Positions 28,713-36,061 of a DNA stretch of 64,000 bases are shown one piece after another. The stretch is taken from contig NZ_JACJPI010000058.1 in NCBI RefSeq assembly GCF_014695975.1, positions 124,001 through 188,000 of the forward strand. Direction: 5' to 3'. A program made the position numbers and the translations under genes. The notes beneath the pieces were generated by a model. That model did no database searches. It saw only the letters and a list, made by a program, of their open reading frames with translations, and was not told the origin of the DNA. The stretch comes from Leptolyngbya sp. FACHB-321. GTDB lineage: Bacteria; Cyanobacteriota; Cyanobacteriia; Leptolyngbyales; Leptolyngbyaceae. The first letter of the stretch is position 1, and each line of letters opens with the position of its first letter.

Positions 28713-29885
28713 CTACCTTCTCCTTGCCTTGCTCACCATCTTGCGCGAAAGCCGCAAATGCAGCTTTTCGTCCTCTGCCCAATCTTGCAACAGACGATAA
28801 AACGTTTGGCGATCGTCCATCTTCAACACAGCGGTTTGGTCAGCGGTTTCAATCACATAGGGATAGCCGCTGCCGATGATCACTTCGCCACGTACCCAAT
28901 CAAGTACGTTTTCTAGCAAACCTGCGTCAGCAATCCAGGTAGGCAACTCTAGCCGCACCGGAAAGCCATCGTGTGCTTTCAGGTAGGTAAAGCCGATTCG
29001 ACTGGCGATCGCACTGGGGTATTGCCTTAAAATGCCGGGTCGTCTACAGCGGAATAAGGGAGTGCGATCACCCCACTGCATTCCCCGCAGCAGCGACGCA
29101 TCATGAATAGCGGGTGCATCGGGTAAGCCGGGTGACACCCGTTGCAGCATCAGGGTCAGGTCACGTGCATAAGACGTGTCAATATAGCCAACTAGTGGTA
29201 CCTGATACTTTTCGCTTGCTTGCAGGAGGCGTACGACGCAATCAATGTAGTGTTGCTGCGTCGCTTCATCAAAGGCTTCGGCAAACGTTGCCACCAGTGA
29301 ACCATCCAAAAACGCCAGACAGGTGCCACAGCCTGCCCGGTCTTCCATGTATTGTACTAACCGCTCTGTTTCCATCTCAAAGCGGCGCATATTGACTCGG
29401 CGATCGACTGGATCGCCGCTGGTATTTGCTCTCAGATCCGCTGGAGTCATTACATCTACAGCGATATCCTTCTCGTATTGCCCACCTGGTTGGTGCCGAT
29501 TTTCAAACCAACCGATTTGCACCAGCGCCACAGGAATCGAAAAATCTTTGCTGGGATAAATTTGGGAACCATCGACAGCAAAGGTCGCAATGCCTGTGAG
29601 GCAAGCACGCACCCACTCATGGCTCTCCTCACGACTCTGCCACGAAAGCCCAGAGGTCATTTGCCAATTTGGATAATTGCCCAATGCTTCTAAGGGTTCA
29701 GCACCGCGATCGTACGCCACATACTCCGCCAACCGCTCTAGCAGATCCTCACTCGTTTCCTGCGATGCCGATGCTAAAGCTCGGCGGTATTTCTCTAGTG
29801 CCTGTACTGTCGTTTGGTCAAACGAGGCAAAGTCATCCCGCTTCTCTTTCAGTAAGCTAAGGATTTGAGACGGTTTCAGAGTCAT
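28713..29885 (-). CDS. NurA domain protein
   Basis: NurA-type nuclease: the N-terminal metal-site motif VDGSQIYP (D105) and the second acidic motif FLDGSL (D194) are both present, and WHxDR-like and GYPYVIETADQTAVLKMDDRQTFY in the C-terminal half complete the RNase H-like fold. Archaeal NurA works with HerA in double-strand-break resection; in cyanobacteria the gene is conserved without HerA close by and the role is unsettled. Length 390 is longer than archaeal NurA by about 50 residues. No herA-like gene occurs in the window. Confidence 0.85.
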   Translation of the reverse strand: MTLKPSQILSLLKEKRDDFASFDQTTVQALEKYRRALASASQETSEDLLERLAEYVAYDRGAEPLEALGNYPNWQMTSGLSWQSREESHEWVRACLTGIATFAVDGSQIYPSKDFSIPVALVQIGWFENRHQPGGQYEKDIAVDVMTPADLRANTSGDPVDRRVNMRRFEMETERLVQYMEDRAGCGTCLAFLDGSLVATFAEAFDEATQQHYIDCVVRLLQASEKYQVPLVGYIDTSYARDLTLMLQRVSPGLPDAPAIHDASLLRGMQWGDRTPLFRCRRPGILRQYPSAIASRIGFTYLKAHDGFPVRLELPTWIADAGLLENVLDWVRGEVIIGSGYPYVIETADQTAVLKMDDRQTFYRLLQDWAEDEKLHLRLSRKMVSKARRR

Positions 29886-32161: not shown

Positions 32162-33364
32162 TTAATCATCGATCGCGGCTACTGCATCACGCAAAGGTTG
32201 AGCAATCCAGTTCAATCCAACGCGAACCTGATGTTCGAGTGTGGGCATCCGGTAGAGGTAAGCCAGCCGACGTGCCACGTAAGCAAGAGAACCGTCTAGC
32301 TTAAGCCCGAAGCCAGTCAAGGTTGCGTTATCAATGCCCAGAGCCATCATTTCGCCCAGATGCTGATACCGGAACGGCAGTAACGGACGCTCTGTAAGCG
32401 ATGCCCAGAGATTCCAACCCACGTACTCGGACTGTTGGAAGGCGGCTTGTGCTGTACCGGGCACTTGTTGTCCGTCAGCATCTTTGCAATCAACAAGGTC
32501 GCCCAAAGCAAAAACATCCGGGTAATCAATTGCTTGCAACGTGGAAGATACCACAACCTGTCCCCGCACATTTTTCTTAAGTGGTAGAGCGTTGATGACT
32601 TCAGCGACGCGAGTGCCTACTGTCCACAGCACAAGGTCAACCGGGATAGTATCGACGTTACCTTTATAAAGCAGGGAAATGTTGTCAGCACCGATCGCCT
32701 CTACAGACGTTTCCAAATCGATCCATACATTTCTTGCATCCAAGGCTTTTGTAGCGGCAGTACGATTAAAATCGGGTGACGTTCTCAGGATGAGATCGGT
32801 TTGCTCAACCAGTCGGATGCGTCCACGGCTGCCCAATCGATCGGCAAGCTTGCAAGCCAGTTCCACGCCAGCATAACCAGCACCCACGATCGCCACTCGT
32901 AACTTGTCAGCCTCAGACTCTTCCAGTTGCCGCAGTCGTTCTTCTAGACGATAGGCATCCGCAATCGAGCGAAAGGGTAAGGCATGTTCTGCCGATCCAG
33001 CCACTAGGTCAAGCGGCGTTTCACCACCCAGGCTTACCACCAGACGATCGTAGGGTAATGCGTGCCCTTCCTGAAGTTGTACGTGTTTTACTGACAGATC
33101 AATACCTGTAACATGGCCCTGATGAAAACGCACTCCAGTGCCAGCTAACAATTCTTCAAACGGTGGCGCAATCTCCCATGTTTGCAATTCGCCTGTCATC
33201 AATTCATAGAGCAAGGGCGAAAAGAGAAAGCGATCGCTGCGATCAACCAGAATAATCTCTGGTTTCTCCTGCTTTGTCCAGGGCAACTGACTAAGGCGTA
33301 GAGCTGTGTAGAGACCACCAAAGCCTCCACCAAGAATGCAAATACGGGCAGGTTGTTGAGTCAT
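32162..33364 (-). CDS. Type II NADH dehydrogenase-like FAD oxidoreductase (NdbB-like)
   Basis: Two-dinucleotide-binding flavoprotein. The FAD motif GGGFGGLYTA begins at residue 12; the second Rossmann motif VAIVGAGYAGVELACKL (about 157-173) binds NAD(P)H; the C-terminal FALGDLVDC motif is the FAD-ribityl site. Length 400, single domain without a membrane helix. The N-terminus RICILGGGFGGLYTALRLSQLPW-type pattern resembles cyanobacterial NdbB, known as a demethylphylloquinone reductase; that paralogue call is tentative. menG, the next step in phylloquinone synthesis, is in the same window at 60076 but not linked. Confidence 0.85.
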   Translation of the reverse strand: MTQQPARICILGGGFGGLYTALRLSQLPWTKQEKPEIILVDRSDRFLFSPLLYELMTGELQTWEIAPPFEELLAGTGVRFHQGHVTGIDLSVKHVQLQEGHALPYDRLVVSLGGETPLDLVAGSAEHALPFRSIADAYRLEERLRQLEESEADKLRVAIVGAGYAGVELACKLADRLGSRGRIRLVEQTDLILRTSPDFNRTAATKALDARNVWIDLETSVEAIGADNISLLYKGNVDTIPVDLVLWTVGTRVAEVINALPLKKNVRGQVVVSSTLQAIDYPDVFALGDLVDCKDADGQQVPGTAQAAFQQSEYVGWNLWASLTERPLLPFRYQHLGEMMALGIDNATLTGFGLKLDGSLAYVARRLAYLYRMPTLEHQVRVGLNWIAQPLRDAVAAIDD

Positions 33365-34360: not shown

Positions 34361-36061
34361 TCACCATGTTACCTGTGTTTCTAATCGCTTCAGCAGTTTG
34401 GGACCTACGCCAGAAATACGGTCTAAATCGTCCAGGGACTTAATTGGACGCTGTTGTCGAGCAGTAATGATACGCGCTGCTAGTTTAGCGCTGATACCCG
34501 GAATTGCATCAAGCTCGGCTTGAGTCGCAGTGTTGATATTGACTAGCTGCTTTTGCTCCCTAGCGACTCTAGTAACTTTAGTAGGAGTTGGTGCTGTTGC
34601 AACTTGAGCGCGCTTGATCGTCTTTAAAGGTTGAGGGCTAGGTTGATTTAACTGGCACTGCCGTCGTTGAGCCTCTACTTTCTTTTGGATGGCGGGTGGT
34701 ATGCCAAGAATGGCGTTCGTATAAAGCCGTTCAAATTCCCGTTGATAGTGGGCAGCAACGGTCGCGCTATGTACAACCAGCACCGTTTCGTCATTGCCTG
34801 TGTTGGCAGCATCCGTCCAGTTGTGAGAGCCAGTAATAACAGTTTCTTGATCGACAATGCCAAACTTATTGTGCAGCAAGTCTCCTGGTGGTAAGCGGGG
34901 CACGCCAACCGTAGTAATCGGGTTCTGCCAGGGACGGTTTTCTGCTTCAGTTTTGCAGTCATCCGCTAACGTAATGCCCAACATATCTAGCGCTTCGCTA
35001 TACGGGCGATAGGCAAAGCCTGGTTCGATCAATCCTCTTACCTCGGTTCCATTTTTGCGAATGGGGTCTAGCAAGTTGACCAGTTTTTGGTCAGAGAAAA
35101 CGAACAGCGCCAGGTCTACTGATTTTTTGGCATTACTTAGGGTTTTGCCAATCAAGCCATTGCTGCTGCTGCTCCAGGGAAGGGAGGCGCGGGTGGGCGA
35201 AAACTGGACTTCAACCAGGGTTGCGCCAATTTTGACTGGCTGCGCTGGGTAAAAGGGCTTTTTGACTCCAAACTTGCTGTCTGTTTTGCCGCCAGGCCCA
35301 TCGCCCCACATAACGTTAAATTGCTGTGTAAATAGTGCTGCTAACTCGGGGCTGTTGATTTGCAGCAGGTTGTTAGCATTGCCACGGCTGGCAGGCGATT
35401 TGAAGTCACCATGTACATCGCTAGTAGTGAAATTTGCTGAGGTGACAATGATAGTGCGACCATCGACCACAACGAATTTATGATGCATTAGGGCACTACC
35501 AGCCGACCCATCAGCCATGTCATCGAGACGAGGTACTCTGGCACGATCAAGGATAACCAGTGCATCCCCTTGAGCAATTTCTTCCTGGCTCAGTTGTCCG
35601 TTCTCATCACGATCGACCAGTTGGCGAAATTCTTCGTAGCGTCCGCGATCGCGCTCTGGCTGCTTAGCAATCTCTTCTGGTGTTACTGTGCTAAAGGGGC
35701 GTGAGTAAGTATTTTCTAAAATCACGCGCACCTTTACGCCTGCGGCGCTTCGCTCTGCTAAGGCTGCTGCAATTTTGGGTAGACGTAGTTCCTGTACTGC
35801 TACATCTACAGTTGTTTGGGCAGCCGCGATCGCGTCAACGATTTTTTGTTCCAGGTCATCTCCATCGCGCGTCTGCTTACGGTATGGCTCGGTGTAGCGT
35901 GCGGCAGGTTCATGATTTGTATAGACCTGAATCAAGTCATCCTGGGGGAGGGGCGTAGGACGGACAGGCTGAGAGTATCCCTGCTGGCAGGCAGAAACAC
36001 TAAGAGCTAGTAAGACGGCGAGTGAACTTTGAAGACGATGATGTAGATGTAATAGAGGCAC
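34361..36061 (-). CDS. Exported PLD-like nuclease with EF-hand and C-terminal helix-hairpin-helix
   Basis: Lipoprotein leader with lipobox SVSAC (C25). Two phospholipase D HKD motifs follow: H193-x-K195-x4-D200 (HHKFVVVDG, then TSANFTTSD) and H397-x-K399-x4-D404 (HNKFGIVD, then GSHNWTDAANTGND). Between the motifs sits a perfect 12-residue EF-hand loop (D150-D152-N154-G155-E161). After a basic Pro/Thr-rich linker, residues about 503-566 form a ComEA-like double helix-hairpin-helix (VNINTATQAELDAIPGIS... ISGVGPKLLKRL). The set suggests an envelope-bound, possibly calcium-responsive nuclease or lipid-acting enzyme that binds DNA; activity is not proven. It is transcribed alone. Confidence 0.88.
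   Translation of the reverse strand: MPLLHLHHRLQSSLAVLLALSVSACQQGYSQPVRPTPLPQDDLIQVYTNHEPAARYTEPYRKQTRDGDDLEQKIVDAIAAAQTTVDVAVQELRLPKIAAALAERSAAGVKVRVILENTYSRPFSTVTPEEIAKQPERDRGRYEEFRQLVDRDENGQLSQEEIAQGDALVILDRARVPRLDDMADGSAGSALMHHKFVVVDGRTIIVTSANFTTSDVHGDFKSPASRGNANNLLQINSPELAALFTQQFNVMWGDGPGGKTDSKFGVKKPFYPAQPVKIGATLVEVQFSPTRASLPWSSSSNGLIGKTLSNAKKSVDLALFVFSDQKLVNLLDPIRKNGTEVRGLIEPGFAYRPYSEALDMLGITLADDCKTEAENRPWQNPITTVGVPRLPPGDLLHNKFGIVDQETVITGSHNWTDAANTGNDETVLVVHSATVAAHYQREFERLYTNAILGIPPAIQKKVEAQRRQCQLNQPSPQPLKTIKRAQVATAPTPTKVTRVAREQKQLVNINTATQAELDAIPGISAKLAARIITARQQRPIKSLDDLDRISGVGPKLLKRLETQVTW

Follow-up and report, generated by a model that had tools for sequence, protein, structure and literature searches.

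A lipoprotein with two HKD motifs, an EF-hand and a helix-hairpin-helix tail

The window, i.e. the entire stretch of 64,000 nucleotides from Leptolyngbya sp. FACHB-321 that was analysed, contains at 34361-36061 on the minus strand an open reading frame which starts with GTG and codes for 566 amino acids (ORF list). Its features are:

34361..36061, minus strand: whole gene, 566 aa; PLD-EF-HhH lipoprotein, well-supported ComA/ComEA (Slr0197) ortholog
35987..36061, minus strand: signal peptide and lipobox VSAC with Cys25, residues 1-25 (sequence)
35300..35863, minus strand: first PLD half-domain, residues ~67-254 (Pfam PLDc_2 in two stretches; limits from the model)
35543..35656, minus strand: inserted EF-hand helix-loop-helix, residues 136-173 (secondary structure of the model)
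35579..35614, minus strand: EF-hand loop DRDENGQLSQEE, 12 residues, 150-161 (D1 and E12 invariant, 142/142)
35432..35485, minus strand: HKD motif 1, residues 193-210 (H193, K195, D200, S208 and N210 invariant in alignment A1)
34724..35146, minus strand: second PLD half-domain, residues 306-446 (Pfam PLDc_2)
34820..34873, minus strand: HKD motif 2, residues 397-414 (H397, K399, D404, G411, S412 and N414 invariant in alignment A1)
34556..34636, minus strand: flexible linker, residues 476-502 (pLDDT <50 at 480-502)
34364..34555, minus strand: ComEA-like double helix-hairpin-helix (HhH) tail, residues 503-566 (matches to HHH_3, comE TIGR01259 and ComEA/EEPD1)

The lipobox VSAC occupies residues 22-25 and ends in Cys25. 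Pfam recognised PLDc_2 twice (E 1.5e-43) and HHH_3 at residues 503-565 (E 3.7e-15). Both HKD motifs are complete: the first reads H193-x-K195-x4-D200-x6-T-S208-x-N210, i.e. TSxN replaces GSxN, the second H397-x-K399-x4-D404-x6-G411-S412-x-N414. Two HxK(x)4D motifs and a PLD fold place the protein in the PLD superfamily (Pfam, alignment and model). An AlphaFold model was built from 47 sequences (mean pLDDT 89.1), and disorder was confined to the linker at 480-502. The best fold matches in the PDB were a phospholipase D (7e0m, top) and the PLD3/PLD4 exonucleases. In the window's own genome the homolog search gave a single full-length match. A preliminary description of the locus had read the lipobox and the two complete HKD motifs correctly, as it had the C-terminal double HhH of this particular protein; across the family, the latter turned out to be inconstant (see below).

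The EF-hand

The loop DRDENGQLSQEE is located within the first PLD half, ahead of HKD motif 1. It had been called a perfect 12-residue EF-hand loop and is indeed canonical. Its conservation was examined in 142 distinct cyanobacterial sequences from the entire class. Position 1 is D and position 12 is E in each of them; positions 3 and 5 are N or D with one exception (position 3 also S), and position 9 is S or T in 137. The non-ligand positions 2, 4, 10 and 11 vary freely. Because the ligand positions are conserved amid freely varying ones, we regard the loop as a real metal site and not as a chance resemblance. In the model, a helix (136-149) precedes the loop and another (159-165) follows; a 12-residue loop, ligands at positions 1, 3, 5 and 12 and two flanking helices are all present. 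EF-hands mostly occur in pairs; here, a second one was looked for in sequence and model, and none was found besides this single loop.

Ligand invariance argues for calcium as the bound metal. A lone EF-hand often is purely structural. The putative calcium site could serve to keep the inserted segment folded near HKD motif 1, or it could be regulatory. The earlier term 'calcium-tuned' therefore stands as far as an invariant calcium-type site is meant; tuning itself is plausible, as is a structural role. We found no report on this protein that deals with an EF-hand or with calcium in the literature covered, which was largely open-access.

The EF-hand insertion is missing from a Vibrio plasmid homolog (alignment). 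Similarly, neither the insertion nor the HhH tail occurs in five exported PLDs, several of them lipoproteins, that belong to other classes of Cyanobacteriota. Therefore, within what was sampled, only the class of the oxygenic cyanobacteria appears to have the insertion. An origin of the EF-hand older than the class was rejected on the basis of the same five PLDs.

The protein is an ortholog of Slr0197

At two loci from one genus (L152, L153) a full-length homolog was found with 48% identity over 562 aa and the identical PLD-EF-HhH domain order; a search for this order elsewhere had been proposed in the preliminary description. The genes there run on one strand in the order RNA-binding protein, rpiA, a 183 aa protein, a 120 aa protein and PLD-EF-HhH. 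In Synechocystis 6803 rpiA is slr0194. Therefore, the third same-strand gene after rpiA, which is PLD-EF-HhH, corresponds to slr0197. Gene order and sequence both agree with this assignment, the order slr0193-slr0197 being present in the two genomes by way of which the comparison was made. In the literature slr0197 bears two names, comA and comEA, and the window protein, with its lipobox, PLD with two HKDs and HhH, matches the published description of ComA. In a published knockout construct, the part taken from the slr0197 ORF measures 844 bp or more (PMC10667661). This is too long for a canonical ComEA. Knockout of slr0197 in Synechocystis abolishes transformation according to the literature.

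Orthology with cyanobacterial ComA/ComEA (Slr0197) is well supported; Slr0197 itself was recognised here by its place in the gene order, the length of its ORF and the domains described for it. The preliminary description missed that the gene encodes a known competence protein. Its proposal of a nuclease for DNA uptake, however, is well supported by the knockout phenotype of the ortholog, with the nuclease activity as a prediction. The likeness to Synechocystis sp. PCC 6803 Slr0197 comprises the PLD-EF-HhH order, an N-terminal membrane anchor and the 48% identity obtained via the genomes with slr0193-slr0197 order; Synechocystis-type orthologs have a transmembrane helix where the window protein has a lipobox. 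With canonical ComEA (Bacillus subtilis, Vibrio cholerae) it shares a C-terminal (HhH)2, which matches TIGR01259 and ComEA entries of the PDB. Yet canonical ComEA is small and has no enzyme domain, whereas the 566 aa of the window protein are mostly a two-HKD PLD with an EF-hand. The comE profile scored 50.5 bits compared to a cut-off of 152.

Most orthologs possess a lipobox; others have an N-terminal transmembrane helix instead (e.g. L045, L151-L153, L155, L173). Because such a helix anchors the protein in the inner membrane, the shared site of action would be the periplasmic face of that membrane and not the cell surface. ComA has also been predicted in the literature to be a plasma-membrane protein with periplasmic domains. 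The surface location proposed initially is thus probably wrong.

Distribution in the class

Of the 291 genomes of the class, 263 carry the PLD gene. It is missing from the smallest genomes: 17 of the 20 listed absences fall into one family whose genomes measure 1.6-2.4 Mb. Similarly, comA was reported absent from small Prochlorococcus genomes (PMC5101192). The phyletic pattern of the PLD gene thus matches that of comA, which supports orthology. Among 27 genomes tested, the two without the PLD gene are also without ComEC, and the other 25 carry both. The window's genome also encodes ComEC and DprA.

Three genomes from the window's family (L054 in G014, L055 in G015, L024 in G013) have the gene broken up into two or three frames, due either to sequencing errors or to recent loss of competence. 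One genome carries beside an intact copy a second PLD-core copy full of stops (G146:C464:12497-13522), probably a pseudogene.

The HhH tail is optional

Of the class sequences, 50 have the HhH tail and 29 lack it. Parsimony on the tree required 15 changes, and even if only well-supported branches are counted, at least five remain; a single gain of the tail was rejected accordingly. One tail-less genome (G064) encodes a KaiC identical over 519 residues to PDB 1u9i, which is S. elongatus KaiC. When this genome was searched with the window protein, the sole match was a PLD-EF lipoprotein that has no HhH. S. elongatus is naturally competent and requires its ComEA (PMC7125226). In four genomes with the PLD gene (G037, G049, G085, G155) no HHH_3 domain was detected genome-wide at E 1e-5. 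Because the tail is patchy and missing even in an S. elongatus-type genome, PLD and EF-hand are, as judged from the sequences, the conserved core of the family and the tail is optional. The preliminary description thus placed excessive emphasis on the HhH, and the tail-less orthologs put the label 'ComEA' in doubt.

A 178-aa HhH protein without obvious signal peptide is encoded at L141:1153-1689; short HhH ORFs of similar size occur in many other cyanobacteria.

Genomic neighbourhood

No competence gene adjoins the PLD gene at the loci examined, which speaks against the proposed role in DNA uptake. A competence operon by synteny was rejected for this reason, and because adjacency to plsX is restricted to the window's family. 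The gene seen most often beside it codes for an NDH-2-like oxidoreductase, at 22 of the 58 long loci in the set of the best 80. In the window such a gene (Pyr_redox_2) lies downstream at 32162-33364. A gene for a NurA-domain nuclease (28713-29885) is located on the same strand as the PLD gene, at a distance of about 4.5 kb; NurA near the PLD gene together with HAD, pentapeptide and NDH-2-like genes was seen only in the closest relatives. An origin from phage or plasmid was rejected: no such record covers 80% of the protein, the best being the Vibrio plasmid homolog with 36% over 64%.

Nuclease or lipase

A PLD fold alone does not tell a nuclease from a lipase. In profile searches the nearest sequence profiles were NucT, DrmC and MitoPLD; NucT and DrmC scored 60-67 bits compared to 16-17 bits for cardiolipin-synthase profiles. 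This ranking supports a predicted nuclease rather than a lipase. With Nuc/NucT-type PLD nucleases, MitoPLD/Zucchini and DrmC the protein shares the HKD motifs. It differs from them by having both HKDs in one chain, an EF-hand insertion and an HhH tail, and its scores are far under the family cut-offs. Membership in DISARM as a DrmC was rejected since 66.8 bits are half of the curated cut-off of 133. The PLD3/PLD4 5' exonucleases, which are membrane-anchored and outside of the cytoplasm, have the same two-HKD fold and are among the best fold matches, yet identity is only ~15% and they have neither EF-hand nor HhH.

For most Gram-negative bacteria it is unsettled which enzyme makes a single strand out of the double-stranded DNA that is taken up. 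The standard model has EndA or the ComEC metallo-beta-lactamase domain degrade one of the strands (PMC6299819). The likeness of the window protein to EndA of Streptococcus pneumoniae and to this ComEC domain lies in the proposed role, i.e. processing of incoming transforming DNA; their folds are unrelated to its PLD. We searched for the HxHxDH and LDVGQG motifs in ComEC from 26 cyanobacteria (the window's genome and 25 others). None of the 26 contained either motif; both are present in the positive control, E. coli YcaI. All 26 retain a C-terminal domain which resembles a metallo-beta-lactamase without the metal-binding motif (L176:739-2997, L186-L210). According to published domain profiling, ComEC without Lactamase_B is the main form in cyanobacteria. 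Because the catalytic motif of ComEC is missing and the HKD residues of ComA are invariant, the PLD domain of ComA is, by complementarity, a natural and good candidate for the nuclease that the strand-processing step otherwise lacks.

A model of ComA in DNA uptake

We consider it likely that this Slr0197 ortholog is a periplasmic PLD at the inner membrane which cuts incoming DNA for ComEC and is equipped with a calcium site in the EF-hand and an optional HhH; enzymatic activity, the substrate step, and both the binding and the role of calcium are inferred. The protein would be exported and anchored by a lipid, or by a transmembrane helix in other species, with the enzyme facing the periplasm. 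The two HKD half-domains would make up one PLD-type phosphodiesterase site. Most likely, the enzyme cuts or degrades double-stranded DNA brought into the periplasm by the type IV pilus, which would let a single strand pass through ComEC. The EF-hand ahead of HKD motif 1 may bind one calcium ion; this probably keeps the active domain in working shape or couples the enzyme to periplasmic calcium. Where present, the ComEA-like HhH tail on its flexible linker could provide an extra grip on DNA.

Could the protein be a DNA receptor only? Like canonical ComEA it would bind DNA in the periplasm, the PLD domain contacting the phosphate backbone, and cutting would be irrelevant to transformation. The literature calls slr0197 a DNA-binding ComEA and the HhH tail matches ComEA profiles. 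Nevertheless, we consider this unlikely: all HKD residues are invariant while many lineages, among them the S. elongatus-type genome, have no tail, which argues for catalysis. Quite unlikely is a periplasmic nuclease which scavenges external DNA as a nutrient or protects against foreign DNA, with a secondary role in competence. Exported PLD nucleases exist, DrmC from the DISARM defence is among the better profile matches, and the gene occurs in many cyanobacteria never shown to be competent, which counts against the competence explanation as such. However, knockout of slr0197 abolishes transformation and does not raise it, DrmC scored far under its cut-off and no recognised defence system was present among the examined neighbours; a role in defence, as suggested initially, has no support. 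A lipid-acting phospholipase D or a cardiolipin-modifying enzyme is very unlikely, since the top fold match to a phospholipase D and the adjacency to plsX-fabH-fabD-plsC in the window's own family are outweighed by the low cardiolipin-synthase scores, the restriction of this adjacency to the window's relatives and the effect of Slr0197 loss on transformation.

Returning to ComA as the nuclease of DNA uptake, we tentatively propose that in oxygenic cyanobacteria a calcium-dependent PLD under control of periplasmic calcium may have taken over this step from ComEC. ComEC would have kept the channel and lost the metallo-beta-lactamase active site; ComA would be mislabelled as a ComEA-type receptor, and its HhH would be dispensable. 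With a transformation-essential protein that has an intact two-HKD site and a degenerate ComEC domain, the question is open to point-mutant tests. The invariant EF-hand would be a concrete link between calcium and cyanobacterial DNA uptake.

A related PLD on a Vibrio plasmid

The Vibrio coralliilyticus plasmid PLD (WP_064487096.1; L137:3815-5266) resembles the window protein in being exported and having two HKDs (37% identity); it differs in that EF-hand insertion and lipobox are absent. Its C-terminal HhH-like tail is weak (25.6 bits, cut-off 27). This suggests that the pairing of PLD and HhH exists beyond cyanobacteria.
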